In this document: positions 3,101-40,730 of the stretch, piece by piece
Layout: the number at the start of each line of letters is the position of its first letter
How positions within the stretch are numbered: the stretch's first letter is position 1
DNA from: Pyrenophora tritici-repentis
Taxonomy: Eukaryota; Ascomycota; Dothideomycetes; Pleosporales; Pleosporaceae
Length of the DNA stretch: 64,000 bases
Direction of reading: 5' to 3'
Assembly: GCF_003171515.1 (NCBI RefSeq)
Contig: NC_089396.1
Coordinates: 1 to 64,000 of the forward strand
Notes under the pieces: model-generated
What the model was told of the DNA's origin: nothing
What the model saw: only the letters and a program-made list of their open reading frames with translations
Databases searched by the model: none
Made by a program: the position numbers and the translations under genes

Positions 3101-5705
3101 TCAACAAAACTCTCCTGCTAAGTTATTGCTCTCAACCGTCTCTAACAATCGCTTTTTTCCTAAAAACTCAAACAACGTCGGCCCTGCTCCTGAATTACTA
3201 ACCCCGAACTCCTCTAACCGCGCCGTCCATCGGTTTCCTACCTCGCTCCGCCCTAATGCTATACTTAATAACCCGCCTATTAATACCCCTCTATACTGGC
3301 AATCCCCGTCTTGGACTCTCTGATATCGCCCAAAACTATTCCTTTCCCACCGATTGCATATCTCCTGCGGCACTCCACACCAAAAACAGCCCGAATAACG
3401 CTCAAACTTAATTGTCTCTTCCATCCTCTTAATCGACTCCTTGATCCGCTGGCTCTCCTGTCGCCAACATTGCCGTACGTCGTGTGCGCTCGATCCTTGC
3501 CCTACCGCCTCGCATAACCCACACCGGTTTATCCATTGCGCCAGCTGCCTACGCAGCCACTCGACGTCGGCGAACTCCTGCTGCCGCTGCTGTATCAATC
3601 TCTGTCGCGGGCCGCCTTGCTCTCGTTGCTGCTGATTAAACGCCTGCCGCGCCTCTTCTTGCTCCCTCTCCAATGTCTCCGCCTCTTCTTCGTTGCTGCT
3701 GCCGCCCTCGGCCACCTCCACCACCTCCATCTCCTCCACCTCCTCCACCTCCTCCACCTCCTCCATCTCTTCCATCTCCTCCTCCATCTCCTCCTCCATC
3801 TCCTCCTCCATCTCCTCCTCCTCCATCTCCTCCTCCTCCATCTCCTCCCCGTCGGCTCTCATGCATACGTCACACCTCTCCTCTCCCTCCTCGCACCGAG
3901 CTCGCTCGGCCTCGCGCCTGTCTAAATACCCGTCCAACATTACCCGTCTACATGTCGCCGCCTCGTCTATGCCTTCGACGTATGCTCGCACCAACCGCTG
4001 CTCCGCCTCCCCCTGCTTGTCATCCGCCGCTCGCTGCTCGCCGTCCTGCACCATCATGATGGCCTCGCTCCGCTCCCCGTCTCGCCCGGCTCGCCCGCTC
4101 TCCTGCGCGTAATCCAACACGCTAAACGGCCAATCCATGTGGACAATGCACCGGATATCGGGCACGTCCACTCCCATGCCCAACGCGCTGGTTGCCACAA
4201 TCACCCGCTGCTTGCCGCCCATGAACTCCTCCAACATGCTTGCCTTGCCAACCGCGTGGTGATGATACGCATGGCACTTGAGCTTCTCGGCTAACCCCTT
4301 GACCTTTGGCACTGAGTTGCCGTACACTACAATCTTGCCGCTCTTATACTTTCGGACCTTCTGCTGTACCATCGCCAACACCGTTGCCTCTACCTCCTGT
4401 CTCTTCCTCTCCTTCTCTACCCTTACCACCCGGTACGCTATGTTGCTCCGTGCTGTTGGTGCCCTAAACATTCTTACCTGCCCACGCTCAAAATGCATTC
4501 GCCGGAATAACTCGTCCTCCTCGCTGGGTGGCAACGTTGCTGTTAACATGACCATCTGCGTCTCTACAGCCACTAGCTTACCTAGCTGCTGCATCTGCTT
4601 GCGGAACGTGTACTGCCGGTTTAACACGATATGGCACTCGTCGATAATAATCCGATCTAGCTGCCGCGTCGCTCGTAGCCGGTTTAAAAACGTTGCAAAT
4701 TCCTCTCCAACTGCCGACTCGGGCGTCACTAACACCACCGCTGCTGCGTCTGGCGGACGCCGACTCTGCCACTCTACGCACGATATCCCTAGCTTCTTGC
4801 ACCGCTGTGCCATGTCGCCACGCAACGCGATCAACGGCACTACCACCACCGTCGTGCCGCCCTGCTCTGCCCACGCCGGCAACATGAACAACAAGCTCTT
4901 GCCTGCCCCCGTCGGCATCACCGCTACTACGGGACTCTCGCCTGCTGTGATGGCTTTGATCGCTGCCTCCTGCACCCCCCGGAACTTGGCCTCCTCGCCC
5001 ATCATGCGCTTCAGCTGCGCTCTCGCGTCCATCTTCCTCAGCCGCTGCCACCGATCCACCCTTGCCTCGTCTGCCTCGCTCTCAAACGGCGCTCTCTTCC
5101 GCTTGCTGCTTCTTCTCTGGTCGTCCAAGCCTGCCTGGAAGCCCAAAAATCTATGCCAATCCGTGCTCGATGCCCGGAACTGCTGCCGCCTATCCGCCAC
5201 GGCCCCTGACTGCTCCATGATCCCTCGCGCGTATACCAGTCCCGCCACGTGCGACGTATGGCCCGCCTGCTCGTCGGCAATCGAATCTCCTGCCTGCTCC
5301 TCAGCCCACTCCTTATTCTCCTCGCCCTCATCTGCCTGGAACGCTGTCGATCCACGCAAAAACCGCCGGCTGATGCCAATCGCCATCTCCCGGTACCCGG
5401 CAAACGTCCACTCCTGGCCCATCGCGATCCGGCTCTCGCGCTTCAACGCCTCCCGCAGCCGATCGGTCGTCCACTTGCGGCCGCTGGGGTCTGCTGGCCA
5501 CATATGCGACGAAACTGCCTCCTTCTCCCACACCAACGCCTCGAGCCGCTGCTGGAACGGCAACACCAGCCACATATACCACACTACCAGCTCGCCCACC
5601 TCGCGCGGCAAATATCGATGGATAATCTTGACGTCGCCGCTGACTTTGTATCCCTTGTGGTACCGTGTCACAAACACCACCATGCCGTCCTCGATGAATA
5701 TATTG
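3101..5705 (-). pseudogene. DUF3505-RecQ helicase, C-terminal helicase segment
   Basis: This is the 3' part of a very large helicase gene running from 13394 to 3101. Counting from the Met at 5683, motif I (MPTGAGKS) is at residues 256-263, motif II is DECH at 348-351, motif III (TATLP) near 381-385, and motifs IV-VI with the RecQ-like signature S-A-L-G-M-G-V-D and Q-E-S-G-R-A-G-R-D near 490-535. After the core come a Cys pair (CDVC), a run of about 45 Glu/Met residues, and further Cys pairs (CGLC, CFWC) that may bind zinc. This arrangement matches the RecQ-like helicases found next to fungal telomeres. The frame is open and in phase with the upstream segments once the Copia element and one copy of its TSD (tattg, 5701-5705) are removed. 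No nonsense change is seen inside the helicase core, so inactivation, if real, is due to the insertions. Confidence 0.85.
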
Positions 5706-30847: not shown

Positions 30848-31011
30848 TGTCAGATAGCAGGGTTACTCGACGTTGGCAGCAACCAATCAGCGTAGAGAGG
30901 GTCAGTGCGCCCCTCAAGAGGGCCACAAGCGCGGACACACGATAGACAGAACACAATACACACAATCATCAACATCCATCACTTTTGTGCAATATCTCAT
31001 TATATCTGACA
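30848..31011 (+). repeat. 3' LTR of Copia copy 2
   Basis: 164 bp, reads as identical to the 5' LTR, followed by the TSD acaat at 31012-31016. Confidence 0.93.
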
Positions 31012-33016
31012 ACAATAGCCTCCGCACTCCGACCTTGTGCTTCCCACATGAAGGCTAGATTGGCCATGCTGGTCACCGTGTCTGGATGGTCCGCTCCCAG
31101 CTTCTTCTTGCGAGTCTCCATCACTTGCACGTCTAGCTCTTCTGCTGCATCCCACCGCCCTTGATTCCGGTAAGTCGAGGCTAGATTGGCCATGCTGGTC
31201 AGCGTGGAAGGATGGTCAGCTCCCAGCTTCTTCTTGCGAGTCTCCATCACTTGCACCTCCAGCTTCTCAGCGTCGTCCCATCGGCCTCCGAGCTTGTACG
31301 CTAACCCAACCATGGCTACGCTCCACAGCGTGTCCTCGTGCTCTTGCCCTAACACCTTCTTCCGCGCTTTCATTGCCTTCGTAGTTAGCATCTCAGCATC
31401 AGCAATGTTTCCTATCCTCTCTGCAAACCACGCTGCACGGTAGAGCACCGTCGCCCACTCTGCTATCGACGACTCGTCTTTAGGTTGCTGCCCTATAGCG
31501 GCCTTGGCATGCGCATTGAGTGCCCGACATGCTACCCAATTCTCGTATTCCCCAGTTGGAAACGCTGCACAAAGATTGCTAATAAACTGCTCCTTCCATT
31601 GCTCAAGCTTGCTGTTTGCCTCAAGCCACATGCGTGTCGCTAGCTGCACTAGCGCGTGCATCTCAAAGCTTGTGCCACTAGTGTCGACAGAAATGAAGCA
31701 GAAGTTACGCAGTGCTACTATGTCGCCTTCAAACTGGTTGTCGCCCACGCTGGACTGCGATGCATTGTCTTCTTCATCGCTCTCCCAGACATCTTGTTCA
31801 GGCTCTTTCTGGCTTGTCTGGGCGCCTCCCTGCAAGGTTTGTCTGTGAAGCAGGGCTTCTGGAATCCCTTGCCGGTCAAAGAAGCTCATCAGCGAGAGCA
31901 GGTCTGCTGCTGATGACCGTGTCTGCTGTATATACTCAAACGAGATCTGCCACGTGACAATGATGGAGTTCTTTGCCTCCCAGTCGCGACGAAGGTGTTC
32001 TTTGTCGTAGTTGAGAAGGCTCGTCTGCTTGCGCTCGCTCTTCCTGTACTCGTCTAGATACTTGGCTACGGAGCATCGCGGGGCTCTCTCCAATATATAC
32101 GCAGCAGCCTGCACGATAGCGAGCGGCATGTACTCAAGCGCCACTGCGAGCTCAGCAATATCGCTGTTATCTCCCTGCGATCCTAACTTCTTCTTAAACA
32201 GCGCCAGGCCCTCTGCCTCGTCCATTGGCTCTACACGAACAATGTCGCGCTGCTCGACCAACTTCAGGGCGGCTTCCTCGTTTCGCGTTGTGACAAGGAT
32301 AGAGCCGCGCTCACAGCGGGGAAGATACTCGCGCAGCGGTTTCCGAATGACCTGTGCGTTGGTGTTTTGGCCTTGACTGTCGCTGTTTGCCTGACCGCTA
32401 AGAAGAAAGCGAGCATCGTCAATGTTGTCCAGCACAATAAGCCAACGCTGCGTACAGCTGCATAGCCAGTCATGCACCAGCTTGAAAATGTCGGCCTGCG
32501 GGTCTCGCCGCCCAAAGATCTTGACGCGGTCGGCAATGTCGCGATAGCTCTGCTCGAAGCGGGCGACATTGCTGGCATGCACCCAGAACACCCACGTCTC
32601 AGCCAACTGCTCTCGCGTGCGATAGGCATGCTCAATAGCAAGCTGCGACTTGCTTCTCTACCGTTAGCGTGTGCTGCCGTTGATGGGGATGCGAACAACT
32701 ACTCACCCAACGCCGCCTAGACCAACAAGCGCCGCACGCGAGCCTGTCGCAGCGCATCTTTGGCGAACCCGTTCGAGTATTGTCCCTCGCTCAACAAAGT
32801 CGTCGTCGCGGGCAAAAGGTATCACGATCGATGGGTGCGGTGGAGTCTCTGGTCGCTCTTGAAGCGGGGTCTGTTAGCGCTGGCTCGGGCCCTCTAGAGC
32901 TAAAGGCAGTCCCACAACTCACCAGGTGACAGGTAGAACGTAGCATCCACGTTGCCGGTAATGATGCCAGCCTGGAAGCCGGCATTCGCATTGCCAAACG
33001 AGATGGTAGAGGCCAT
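31012..33016 (-). pseudogene. NLR1: amyloid-motif NB-ARC-TPR receptor, 5' part, cut by Copia copy 2
   Basis: Exons on the minus strand are 33016-32923, 32857-32707 and 32652-31012, then, beyond Copia copy 2, 25763-25646. Together they give 668 codons in phase. The first 25 residues carry the motif S-F-G-N-A-N-A-G-F-Q-A-G, matching NLR2 and the PNP protein C-terminus. A short Pro-rich linker leads to F-A-R-D-D-D-F-V-E-R and the NB-ARC domain: Walker A G-L-G-G-V-G-K-S-Q (split by intron 2 as in NLR2), Walker B L-I-V-L-D-N-I-D-D, G-S-I-L-V-T-T-R, and M-P-L-A-I-V. Two to three TPR units of 42 residues follow. It is a STAND receptor of the fungal NLR type, expected to oligomerise on ligand binding. 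The Copia insertion removes the last TPR region; otherwise no nonsense change is seen. Confidence 0.85.
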
Positions 33017-36182: not shown

Positions 36183-37289
36183 ATGAATCCCTCAGACTAC
36201 ACCGTAGGCTGGATCGCGCCGCTTTCACTGGAGCTCACAGCGGCGAGACATATGCTCGATGTCGAGCACAATGAAGTAACCGATAACGAACATCGCTATA
36301 TCGCAGGCAACATTGGAGACCACAACGTTGTCATCGGCATCCAATCGAAGATGGGTACTAGCGCTGCGGCGGATCTGGCCGCGCGGATGCGTCGCGCCTG
36401 CCCGAACATCAAGTTCTTTCTCGTAGTCGGGATCGGCGGCGGAGTACCGAGCTACGGCCCAGCAGGCGACGTCAACACGATCGTCTTGGGAGACGTAGTA
36501 GTCTCCTCCCCGCGAGGCAACCACGGGGGCGTGTTTACGTACGACACCGGCGCATGGGTCGAGGACGGCCAGCTGAGCAACGCGGGACATCTCAACGGCC
36601 CGCCGTCAGAGCTCAGCGCAGCTGTCGGCAGCTTGCGGTCACGACACGATGGGAGCCATGGAACAAAGATCCCGCAGTATCTCGCGCAGATGCGAAGCAA
36701 GCTAAATGAAAAAGTCCGTGCCAGGTTCGACGATCAAGGCGCCGACAACGATCGACTGTATCAGAGCTACTTCCCTCACCCGCACGATGAACCAAACGAG
36801 CTTTGCGACAACTGCTGCGACTTTAGCTTTTGCACGCAGCGGAGCAAGCGTGGCGAGGGTGCAGTCAGAGCCGTCGACACCCCTAAGGTTCACTACGGCA
36901 ACATCGCATCGAGCAATCAACTGCAGGTCTCCGCCACCATGCGAGACAGGATTGCAGCAGAGCATCAGGCTGTCTGCTTTGAGATGGAAGGCGCCGGTGT
37001 TATACAGAGCCATCCCTGCCTGGTGATTCGAGGCATCTGCGACTATTCCGACTCGCACAAGAACAAGCGCTGGCAGTCTTATGCAGCAGCTACAGCAGCT
37101 GCATTCGCGAAGGAACTGCTACTGTCGATGGCGCCGGCTGCTGTCGCAGGGAAGGCGGAGCCTCTTAGACCACTCTCGGCTGAGGAGAGCGGCCAGGTAC
37201 AGCACATCACGTTTGGGTCCAACAACCAGGGCTTTCAGTCTGGGAACGTCTACGGTGGTGTCAGCAGTCTCACGTTTGGGAGGAAGTAG
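36183..37289 (+). CDS. PNP_UDP-fold protein with C-terminal amyloid-type motif (putative NLR effector)
   Basis: One exon, 368 residues. The start Y-T-V-G-W-I-A-P-L-S-L-E-L is typical of fungal phosphorylase-superfamily (PNP_UDP_1) proteins linked to NLRs. Further landmarks are V-V-G-I-G-G-G-V-P-S near residue 81, L-G-D-V-V-V-S near residue 102, the F-E-M-E-G-A-G-V substrate-site block near residue 268, and I-R-G-I-C-D-Y-S-D-S-H followed by the A-A-A-T-A-A-A-F-A-K helix. A Cys-rich insertion (C-D-N-C-C) lies near residue 207. The domain usually cleaves the N-glycosidic bond of nucleosides. The last 28 residues form a separate motif, I-T-F-G-S-N-N-Q-G-F-Q-S-G, after a short Pro/Ala/Glu linker. 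The motif matches the N-termini of NLR1 and NLR2. NLR2 starts 770 bases downstream on the same strand. Confidence 0.85.
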   Translation: MNPSDYTVGWIAPLSLELTAARHMLDVEHNEVTDNEHRYIAGNIGDHNVVIGIQSKMGTSAAADLAARMRRACPNIKFFLVVGIGGGVPSYGPAGDVNTIVLGDVVVSSPRGNHGGVFTYDTGAWVEDGQLSNAGHLNGPPSELSAAVGSLRSRHDGSHGTKIPQYLAQMRSKLNEKVRARFDDQGADNDRLYQSYFPHPHDEPNELCDNCCDFSFCTQRSKRGEGAVRAVDTPKVHYGNIASSNQLQVSATMRDRIAAEHQAVCFEMEGAGVIQSHPCLVIRGICDYSDSHKNKRWQSYAAATAAAFAKELLLSMAPAAVAGKAEPLRPLSAEESGQVQHITFGSNNQGFQSGNVYGGVSSLTFGRK

Positions 37290-37370
37290 TTACAACAGGA
37301 ACATGTACTGTCTCAACGAATTACACTTAGACATCTTGATCGCTTGTACATAGCTGCAACTAACATGGTG

Positions 37371-37899
37371 TTAACTATAGTTGCCTACAGATAAGTCCTC
37401 CAATTCCTCGATAGCCCACCTAGAGTGCCTAAAGTGACCTCTTGCGCTTTGTTTCCTGCTGCCGACCTGATCGACACACCACTCTAGGAACACGTCGAAC
37501 CCTTACGCTGTGTCCTCTTCGTACGTGCTCCAGCTGCGCTTGATGAACGCCTTTCTTCGACCAGCCAGCAGACTTCAATGTCCGGCTAATTGTAGAAGTC
37601 GGTATAATTGTCCCAAACTCGTCCCACAGGAAGACGGAAATCTCGTCGAGGTATTGATCGGGCTTTTCGAGAAGGTACTCCCGGAGAGCCTCGAGCACTA
37701 TCGGTGTTACAGATCGAGGGCGTCCGCCACCGTTCCATGGCGCTTCGACAGATCCAAAGGCGCGGAGGTTGGAGCGGATATACTTGACGGCGCGAACACT
37801 GCAGCCAGCTGCGTCAGCCATCTGCGCAGCAGTAAGCCCGTTACTTAAGATCATGTCGTGAATCATCCGGCGCTGTGAAATTGCCAGATTTGGAGCCAT
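37371..37899 (-). mobile_element. Tc1/IS630-type transposase remnant with the catalytic core deleted
   Basis: The frame 37899-37429 begins with a helix-turn-helix (M-A-D-A-A-G-C-S-V-R-A-V) and continues through G-G-G-R-P-R-S-V and a second HTH half (T-S-T-I-S-R-T-L-K) to W-S-K-K-G-V-H, as in fungal Tc1/IS630 transposases. A one-frame shift then leads into G-F-D-V-F-L-E-W-C-V-D-Q and A-R-G-H-F-R-H, the usual C-terminal end, with the stop at 37371-37373. The DDE region between is missing. Terminal repeats were not found. It lies between the PNP gene and NLR2 in opposite orientation. Confidence 0.65.
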
Positions 37900-38059
37900 C
37901 TTTGGTAGACCGTGGGCTTAATTAGAGCAGCTGGTGGTGGTGATGTCAGAGTGATTAGGTGGCTGAGAGGCCTGCAAGCCAACTGCGCGAACCGCCAGAC
38001 TGAGCCCAGCTGGCACTTGATCGCAGATACCACTGATTTAACGTTACTACTAGAGTATC

Positions 38060-40730
38060 ATGAGCCCCTCTATTTCTTTCGGTGACGCAAACGCTGGCTT
38101 CCAAGCCGGCATCATTAACGGCAACGTGGATGCTGCGTTCTACCTGCCACCTGGTGAGTTGTGGGACTGCCTTTAGCTCTAGAGGGCCCGAGCCAGCGCT
38201 AACAGACCCCGCTTCAAGAGCGACCAGAGACTCCACCGCACCCATCGATCGTGATACCCTTCGCCCGCGACCCCGACTTTGTCGAGCGAGGCACGACACT
38301 CGATCAGGTCGACCAACTATGCGCTACGCCGGACACGCGGGCTGCACTCGTCGGCCTAGGCGGCGTAGGGTAAGCAGAAGACCACTCAACCAGCACTACA
38401 TGTATGCTAACTGCAGAGAAAGCAAGTCGCAGCTTGCTATAGAGCATGCCTACCGCACACGCGAGCAATCGCCAGAGACGTGGGTGTTCTGGGTGCATGC
38501 CAGCAACGCCGCCCGGTTCGAGCAAAGCTACCGCGACATCGCTGACCGGGTCAAGATCGCTGGGCGGCGAGATCCGCAGGCGAACATCTTCAAGCTAGTG
38601 CACGACTGGCTGTGCGACTGCAAGCAGCGGTGGCTTCTTGTGCTGGACAACGTTGACGACGCTGGCTTTCTTAGTGGCCAGGCAAACAGCGACAGTCAAG
38701 GCCAAAACATCAACGCGCAAGTCATTCGGAAACCGCTGCGCGAGTACCTCCCCCACTGCGAGCGCGGCTCCATCCTCGTAACGACGCGAAGTAAGGAAGC
38801 GGCGCTAAAGTTGGTTGAGCAGCGTGACATTGTTAATGTGGAGCCGATGGACGAGACGCAGGCGCTGGCGCTATTTAAGAAGAAGCTAGGAACAGAGGGA
38901 GACAACGGCGATATTGTCGAGCTTGCAGCAGCGCTCGAATACATGCCGCTCGCTGTTGTGCAAGCCGCTGCATACATCTGGCGAAGCGCGCCTCGTTGCT
39001 CAGTGGCACAATACCTAGAAGAATTCAGGCACAGCGACAGCGAAAAGACAAGCCTGTTAAACCACGAAGCAGGACAGCTTCGAAGAGACCGAGAGGCTAA
39101 GAACTCGATTATTATTACATGGCAGATATCATTCCAGCACTTGCGGCGAAATAAACCGTCGGCGGCCGACCTGCTATCACTGATGAGCTTCTTTGACCGA
39201 CAGGGAATTCCTGAAGCACTTATCCACGACGCCCAGGGAGTGAAACGGGGAAGTACAGCTTCAGACAGCAGGGGAAGGTCACTGAGGCGGCGTTTCAGGC
39301 TATTCCTGAGTCATACTAAGAGTAGGCCTGGGGCCCAGCGAGAGCACAAAGAAAGCGATAGCGATGGTGTGAAGTTTAAGAACGACGTGGTGGCGCTGTG
39401 CGATCTCTGCTTAATCTCTAGTAGCGCAGACGGCGCCACTTTCGAAATGCACAGTCTTGTGCAGCTTGCAACACGGAGATGGCTTATTGCAAACAGCGAG
39501 CTTGAGCTGTGGAGGCAGCATTTTATTAGTAATCTCCACGCAGCATTTCCAACTGGAGAATACGAGAACTGGGCAGCATGTCAGAGATTATTCGCGCACG
39601 CTGAGGCAGCAGCTAGCCACAAACCAGAAGCGGCATCTTCGCTAACAGAATGGGCTACGCTACTATATCGTGCGGCGTGGTATGCGGAGACGAAAGGAAG
39701 CGCAGGTGAAGCAGAAATGCTGGCGATAAAGTCAATGAAGGTGCGAGAGAGTATCTTAGGGCCAAAGCATCAGGACACGATACGGAGCATCGCAATGGTG
39801 GCAGATGCCTATTCACTTGGTGGACAATGGGACAAAGCTGAAAAACTAAGGAAGCAAGTGATGAAGACTCGCAAGAAGAAGCTGGGAGCGGACCATCCAG
39901 ACACGCTGACCAGCATGGCCAATCTAGCCTCGACTTACCAGGATCAAGGGCGGTGGGATGCAGCAGAAGAGCTGTTTGTGCAAGTGATGGAGACTCGCAA
40001 GAAGAAGCTGGGAGCGGACCATCCTTCCACGCTGACCAGCATGGCCAATCTAGCCTCGACTTACCAGGATCAAGGGCGGTGGGATGCAGCAGAAGAGCTG
40101 GAGGTGCAAGTGATGGAGACTCGCAAGAAGAAGCTGGGAGCGGACCATCCAGACACGGTGACCAGCATGGCCAATCTAGCCTCGACTTACGGGAATCAAG
40201 GGCGGTGGGATGCAGCAGAAGAGCTGGAGGTGCAAGTGATGGAGACTCGCAAGAAGAAGCTGGGAGCGGACCATCCTTCCACGCTGACCAGCATGGCCAA
40301 TCTAGCCTCGACTCTTTGGAATCAAGGGCGGTGGGATGCAGCAGAAGAGCTGGAGGTGCAAGTGATGGAGACTCGCAAGAAGAAGCTGGGAGCGGACCAT
40401 CCAGACACGCTGACCAGCATGGCCAATCTAGCCTCGACTTACCAGGATCAAGGGCGGTGGGATGCAGCAGAAGAGCTGTTTGTGCAAGTGATAGAGACGA
40501 GCAAGAAGAAGCTGGGAGCGGACCATCCAGACACGCTGACCAGCATGAACAATCTCACCTACACACAGAAATCACTTGGTCGAGAGGTAGAGGCTATAGA
40601 ACTAATGAGGGAATGCGTACAGCTTTGCCAGCAGAGGTTCAGACCTAATCATCCTAATTTGCTGTCTTCCTTAGCAGCGTTAGCTCAGTGGGAAGCAGAG
40701 GATGTAGTTGAAAATTTAGAGATTTTGTAG
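38060..40730 (+). CDS. NLR2: amyloid-motif NB-ARC-TPR receptor
   Basis: Exons 38060-38153, 38219-38369 and 38423-40730 give 850 residues. The intron positions and lengths match those of NLR1. The N-terminus M-S-P-S-I-S-F-G-D-A-N-A-G-F-Q-A-G carries the amyloid-type motif at residues 4-25. A Pro-rich linker and F-A-R-D-P-D-F-V-E-R lead into NB-ARC: Walker A G-L-G-G-V-G-K-S-Q at about 76-85, Walker B L-L-V-L-D-N-V-D-D, G-S-I-L-V-T-T-R, and M-P-L-A-V-V-Q. A region that scores NLR1 as its closest relative follows, then six 42-residue TPR units at about 560-800 and a final V-E-A-I-E-L-M-R-E-C-V cap. The upstream frame that begins at 38082 is not coding; it reads through both introns. It is expected to be a cytosolic receptor that oligomerises and seeds amyloid folding of its partner, probably the PNP protein just upstream. 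Confidence 0.87.
39870..40560 (+). repeat. 126-bp tandem TPR-coding repeats of NLR2
   Basis: Six units of 126 bp, each coding one kinesin-light-chain-type TPR of 42 residues with the core A-D-H-P-x-T-x-T-S-M-A-N-L. Neighbouring units differ at only a few bases. The same unit, nearly unchanged, occurs in NLR1 (31050-31290). High identity of repeats is typical of fungal NLRs whose sensor arrays are reshuffled by recombination. Confidence 0.9.

Follow-up and report, generated by a model that had tools for sequence, protein, structure and literature searches.

The NLR1-PNP-NLR2 locus

The window analysed here, 64,000 nt at the start of contig C7 in the genome (40.9 Mb, 41 contigs) of the wheat pathogen Pyrenophora tritici-repentis, encodes a protein of the PNP_UDP family, labelled P0001 in our homologue set, with a gene for a NOD-like receptor (NLR) on either side of it (Table 1). 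The three proteins carry one short terminal motif in common, and this trio is the subject of the present analysis.

The coordinates behind a preliminary description of this DNA hold: the PNP gene spans 36183-37289, and the start codon of NLR2 is at 38060. NLR2 (38060-40730, plus strand) requires two introns, giving three exons and a protein of 850 amino acids with an intact P-loop; the P. tritici-repentis protein P0122 is of equal length and differs from it at 3 of the 850 residues. NLR1 (33016-30969, minus strand) lies on the other flank of the PNP gene, points away from it and has the same exon structure, and P0123, also from P. tritici-repentis, is 97% identical to it; the clusters of P0122 and P0123 comprise 14 and 12 member sequences, respectively. 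The PNP gene is separated from NLR2 by 0.8 kb (the NLR2 ATG lies 771 bases beyond the PNP stop) and from NLR1 by 3.2 kb, a spacing that falls within the 20 kb limit used in PMC9815663. An element judged by eye to be copia-like adjoins the end of the short tetratricopeptide repeat (TPR) stretch of NLR1, and the open reading frame (ORF) between the PNP and NLR2 genes, which stands outside the PNP/NLR system, is perhaps a transposase relic.

Table 1. Positions of the features of the trio and its immediate surroundings within the window.
Feature	Position	Strand	Description or support
PNP_UDP protein, 368 aa, one exon	36183..37289	+	MTA/SAH-nucleosidase-like body, residues 1-322; low-confidence tail, 323-368
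PP-like motif at PNP C-terminus, residues 342-361	37206..37265	+	NLR N-terminus profile 16.8 bits; PF17046 E 0.14, under cut-off
NLR2 exon 1, nearly all motif (motif 38072-38128)	38060..38153	+	PNP-tail profile 37.2 bits; PF17046 E 0.0044, under cut-off
NLR2 exon 2, linker reaching P-loop	38219..38369	+	splice model, backed by P0122
NLR2 exon 3: NACHT/NB-ARC, DUF7779, TPR	38423..40730	+	Pfam
TPR array of NLR2	39854..40555	+	126-bp unit, 5.6 copies, 93% matches
NLR1 exon 1 (motif 33004-32948)	32923..33016	-	NLR profile 57.7 bits; PF17046 E 1.6e-4
NLR1 exon 2	32707..32857	-	gene model
NLR1 exon 3: nucleotide-binding domain and short TPR stretch	30969..32652	-	69% identity to NLR2 over 656 residues
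Helix-turn-helix ORF between PNP and NLR2	37432..37899	-	PF13565 E 2.9e-4, under cut-off

The enzyme

P0001 matches PF01048 (PNP_UDP_1; E 1.2e-8) and, in PADLOC, the model "Effector, PN-superfamily" (E 1.6e-10). The predicted fold of its body is that of a 5'-methylthioadenosine/S-adenosylhomocysteine (MTA/SAH) nucleosidase with the catalytic residues conserved, and nucleosidases of this type rank first as the nearest solved folds in structure searches; the tail is predicted to be unfolded (predicted local distance difference test score below 50 from residue 323). The enzyme probably breaks down nucleosides or nucleotides, and hydrolysis appears likelier than phosphorolysis because the nearest solved folds are nucleosidases. 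Another member of the superfamily is a less favoured possibility.

A motif shared by the enzyme and both receptors

The PNP_UDP protein ends in ITFGSNNQGFQSGNVYGGV, NLR2 starts with ISFGDANAGFQAGIINGNV and NLR1 with ISFGNANAGFQAGIITGNV. The pattern first described, I-[ST]-F-G-x2-N-x-G-F-Q-x-G-x3-G-x-V, fits the PNP tail and the NLR2 head, which are identical at 10 of 19 residues; the motifs of NLR1 and NLR2 agree at 17 of 19, so that NLR2 is not the single motif-bearing partner it had been taken for. In NLR2 the motif occupies residues 5-23 and the NACHT match begins at residue 74, and among the 25 of 27 Pfam matches listed there is no further N-terminal family. Profiles and Pfam together bear out the arrangement known from amyloid-signalling pairs, in which the C-terminal motif of an enzyme is matched at the head of an NLR that has no other N-terminal domain.

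Profiles were built from other fungi so that the search would not depend on a pattern derived from just two proteins. The NLR-head profile was made from 59 of 65 NLR homologues, after removal of four rows from Pyrenophora and of two that lack the motif at the start. The PNP-tail profile rests on 28 of the 35 tails of PP class (named for the amyloid motif treated below) outside P0001-P0010, the nearest relatives, seven truncated or irregular tails having been dropped by eye. Both were run against the 1194 ORFs of at least 30 amino acids in the window. With the NLR-head profile, exon 1 of NLR2 scored 64.4 bits and that of NLR1 57.7 bits; the PNP tail followed at 16.8 bits (E 2.5e-4) and the next-best ORF at 6.8 bits, while shuffled controls reached at most 11.8 bits (6050 tails) and 9.5 bits (2420 whole proteins). 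In the reverse direction the PNP-tail profile gave 38.3 bits for the PNP tail itself, 37.2 bits for NLR2 (E 1.1e-10) and 34.5 bits for NLR1 (E 7.6e-10), the next best after the trio being 9.3 bits and the best of 3250 shuffled NLR heads 6.5 bits. A profile-profile comparison of PNP tails with NLR heads returned a probability of 98.4 and E 9.5e-15. The bare DNA pattern for NxGFQxG occurs at 10 places in the genome against 7 for the reversed control, four of the 10 being the three motifs of the window and a stray exon on C2. Chance resemblance between short G/N-rich ends might draw on the shortness of the motif and on the 52 copies of a repeat ORF that reach 16.6 bits with PF17046; against the scans and shuffles in both directions, and with the motif kept in many species, it is next to incredible. 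The motif shared by the PNP tail and both NLR heads is confirmed as real and more than chance.

Conservation and exchange of tails

The PNP homologues comprise the best 120 of 4910, or 121 with P0001. At an E setting of 1 the NLR-head profile lists 56 of the 121; 38 of these exceed the best shuffled score, and in none of the 56 does the match stop more than 19 residues short of the C-terminus. Among the 65 NLR homologues, 63 match the PNP-tail profile from residue 12 or earlier with E < 0.01, the two exceptions being P0171, with the motif at 107-128, and P0186, with none. Absence or misalignment of the motif in orthologues of either gene had been named at the outset as an observation that would refute the proposal; this was tested, and the motif is kept on both sides. 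For 45 tails that their pattern assigns to PP (one of which, P0023, was later reassigned to the IQGNN class), conservation averages 0.79 in the body, 0.44 in the linker, 0.70 in the motif and 0.61 in the last seven residues.

Seven named species, picked by eye, are common to the PNP and NLR homologue lists. A motif-bearing NLR is found on a contig of identical size in all three species with a PP-class PNP tail (Lentithecium fluviatile, 361,779; Dendryphion nanum, 1,355,670; Pyrenochaeta sp., 2,710,459) and in none of the four with another tail (Alternaria alternata, Ophiobolus disseminans, Paraphaeosphaeria sporulosa, Corynespora cassiicola); the species are few, equal size is taken as the same contig, and two of the contigs exceed 1 Mb.

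Tail classes were placed on a quickly built tree of 75 bodies, which omits 35 of the 110 proteins for want of a recognised tail and leaves 37 of its 72 inner branches unresolved. The six classes, set by eye and pattern, need 16 changes on this tree; the minimum possible is 5 and the mean after shuffling 29.3. P0010, which carries a GGK tail, falls within the clade of P0001 (support 99), and the sigma-tailed P0086 and P0104 group with two PP-tailed proteins (support 97). The tree indicates that, among relatives of the PNP enzyme, tails of different class have repeatedly replaced one another on one body. GVQ and SIQ tails may be variants of PP. The GGK class (P0010, P0079, P0081, P0095, P0099, P0101, P0109 and P0115) and the IQGNN class (P0019 and P0023) are two more conserved C-terminal tails on this enzyme body; they may represent amyloid motifs of another kind, conceivably PF01048_015 or HRAM3, both already published. 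Among 110 PNP homologues Pfam recognises no amyloid-motif family other than PF17046 and the sigma motif PF17106; the latter is present on 2 of the 110, which fits exchangeable amyloid addresses. A search for more tails or other effectors with residues 322-368 of P0013 returned, among 15 candidates, two: P0013 itself and P0033.

Other NLRs and copies of the motif in the genome

NLR3, at 63350-60843 of the window (minus strand), has a HET domain, NB-ARC and TPRs by Pfam, and the NLR-head profile finds no motif in it among the window ORFs. Three further NLRs of this genome start with a HET domain according to Pfam, and others look similar by eye. Elsewhere, in two copies on C5 and also on C3, where the NLR was recognised by eye, an NLR-like ORF follows a PNP ORF at 136 and 218 bases; the PNP and NLR ORFs of these loci are perhaps spliced together or separate. 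The two C5 loci, L052 (C5:84000-93900) and L053 (C5:3175000-3184900), are inverted copies of 8.75 kb with 99.5% identity, each holding a PNP ORF and then an NB-ARC/TPR ORF. In the genome pieces read, NLRs that have a HET domain or stand directly behind a PNP ORF give no match to the motif; the motif thus occurs where the NLR has no fused effector domain.

This distribution bears on the idea that the motif is a leftover linker, devoid of signal, from an ancestral fused PNP-NLR gene that has since been split. PNP ORFs directly before NLR ORFs on C5 and C3 lend it some colour, but the motif profile has no match in the PNP-NLR loci L051-L053, the motif is more conserved than the linker that precedes it, and the class of the tail has changed time and again on one body, so that we regard a split fusion as improbable.

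Some loci do not conform to this distribution. The NLR on C5 at 1.48 Mb has neither the motif nor an effector domain in the part that was read. On C9 an NLR copy has its motif split by a stop, and at about 5430-5639 of locus L048 (C2:1436947-1437036, minus strand) the NLR motif exon stands alone, no other exon of an NLR having been found within the 9.9 kb read. That the trio is itself a former signalling unit now decaying in this fungus would agree with the mobile-element sequence around the genes, the short TPR stretch of NLR1 and the damaged or incomplete copies at other loci (on C9 with stops, on C2 reduced to the motif exon, on C5 at 1.48 Mb); the PNP and NLR2 genes are open, however, with P-loop and catalytic residues intact, and the P0122 and P0123 clusters have their 14 and 12 sequences, which leaves decay a very improbable account. 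HeLo-like domains (PF17111) match at 10 places in the genome; no motif was found at E 0.5 in pieces of about 3 kb at these loci, and such a protein may exist elsewhere in the genome.

Outside the system, the first 4 kb of the window, at the contig start, show a strong strand skew (GC skew -0.49 and -0.46), beside an ORF judged by eye to be helicase-like (5683-3101, minus strand).

Assignment of the motif

PMC9815663 gives the core of the PP motif as NxGxQxGxN, and PF17046 is its Pfam family, "PP (misnamed SesB)" in PMC12261475. The trio has NxGxQxG. PF17046 gives 21.9 bits for the NLR1 head against a cut-off of 23.2, a weaker match to the NLR2 head and a weak one to the PNP tail (Table 1); it matches 8 of 10 NLR heads tested, NLR1 and NLR2 included, none of which reaches the curated cut-off, and 23 of 110 PNP homologues at E of 0.1 or less. 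With these matches under the cut-off, and the core present save its last N, the motif best fits PP (RHIM-like) and is to be called PP-like, below threshold. Over the whole genome PF17046 finds 54 places, with the NLR1 exon best and NLR2, at 16.6 bits, tied with 52 copies of a repeat ORF (for example C1:7407904-7407969), whose matches are probably chance in a mobile element.

Two other classes were considered. PF17106 (sigma) has no match to P0001 at E 1 or to 10 NLR heads at E 10, with speed filters that may drop weak matches, and on inspection the PUASM motif FxGxGxQxxGxGxF is absent from the PNP tail and the NLR heads. The analogy to HET-s and sigma systems originally drawn therefore survives in the layout of matched motifs and gives way as to type, the motif being closest to PP.

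Sequence does not distinguish amyloid from other homotypic contact, and the PP profile scores are below the cut-off; the motif might accordingly serve as a short docking or co-assembly tag, not amyloid, between the NLRs and the enzyme. We think this unlikely, since PP motifs with demonstrated prion formation (PMC7885112) have the same G/N/Q-rich GxQxG core and the same placement at effector end and receptor head, and a sigma motif takes the same place in relatives of the enzyme.

A putative amyloid signalling unit

The explanation that we consider probable is that NLR1, PNP and NLR2 form a PP-type (RHIM-like) amyloid signalling unit, in which two NLRs switch on one nucleosidase effector. Starting from the gene structures, the motif homology on both sides, its conservation, the domain folds and the conserved catalytic residues, we infer oligomerisation, templating, activation, substrate and outcome as follows. 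The PP-like motif of each NLR would take the place of the fused effector domain of other NLRs; ligand binding would cause the NLR to oligomerise and bring the N-terminal motifs together, and the clustered motifs would nucleate amyloid. The amyloid would convert the matching motif at the flexible PNP C-terminus and gather the nucleosidase domains into an active assembly. Hydrolysis of an adenine nucleoside or nucleotide, possibly ATP, by this assembly would then stop or kill the cell.

Several observations weigh against this unit. The short TPR stretch of NLR1 lies beside a mobile element; what may be a relic of a transposase separates PNP from NLR2; 65 of the 121 PNP proteins have no match to the NLR-head profile at the E 1 setting; and in the stretch read on C5 at 1.48 Mb an NLR has neither motif nor effector domain. 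PF17046 scores NLR1 and NLR2 below its cut-off and the PNP tail at E 0.14, the tail is not among the 54 genome-wide places, and the final N of the PP core is replaced by V or I in the trio.

More tentatively, a PP amyloid address may wire the nucleosidase to two receptors in a family that has swapped PP, GVQ and SIQ variants, sigma, GGK and IQGNN on one body, a broader proposal that we hold possible and somewhat doubtful. If it is true, an exchangeable amyloid code would decide which NLRs can trigger nucleotide depletion, and GGK and IQGNN would be possible motif classes of their own. The unit is compact, a soluble enzyme and two receptors that share a single motif of 20 residues; amyloid templating here should switch on an enzyme and not a membrane pore, and the activity of that enzyme lends itself to direct assay in the presence or absence of seeds. 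The recurrent tail exchange on PNP bodies offers natural material on how amyloid motifs set signalling specificity. The earlier interpretation is partly supported: its outline is plausible and less new than was thought.

Comparison with known systems

The preliminary description had presented a PNP-type effector as a notable variation on the usual effectors, a view overtaken by PMC9815663, which links PNP_UDP effectors to NLRs through HRAM3, PUASM and PF01048_015 and reports PP and sigma with pore-forming and enzymatic effectors alike. PMC12881547 and PMC12258605 list PNP_UDP among fungal NLR domains, and PMC5485727 anticipates several NLRs serving one effector. PP is not named outright together with PNP_UDP in the accessible excerpts, and the supplementary tables of PMC9815663 might hold this pairing or this fungus; no publication on the locus was found among the listed results of our literature searches, in one of which the 10 listed of 4470 all lacked the species name.

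The PP signalosomes HELLP/PNT1 of Podospora anserina and CgHELLP/CgSBP/CgPNT1 of Chaetomium globosum (PMC7885112) resemble the trio in that a PP-type motif at the effector C-terminus recurs at the head of an NB-ARC/TPR NLR encoded nearby, and PP prions there activate HELLP and cross-seed in part with human RHIM. Their effectors are a HeLo-like pore former and a putative lipase, whereas that of the window is an MTAN-like enzyme with two NLRs, and the PP of the trio scores below the Pfam cut-off. PUASM pairs (PMC9815663) share with the trio a PNP_UDP effector whose C-terminal amyloid motif is matched at an NLR N-terminus, and one PUASM tail forms foci and behaves as a prion in Podospora; they have their own motif, FxGxGxQxxGxGxF, and NACHT or NACHT-WD40 receptors, whereas the NLRs of the trio have TPRs and another motif. 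The sigma system of Nectria haematococca (sesA, sesB, het-eN; PMC5485727) likewise joins effectors and an NLR by a shared amyloid motif, but sigma finds no match in the PNP or NLR heads of the window and is borne by two PNP homologues. Outside fungi, PMC10197012 describes a bacterial PNP-domain protein as an immune ATP nucleosidase, of the same enzyme superfamily as the PNP of the window, which differs in being linked to its receptors by a shared motif and for which ATP as substrate would be an analogy. The type of system is already known, and the locus adds to it a PP-like PNP_UDP case with two receptors.

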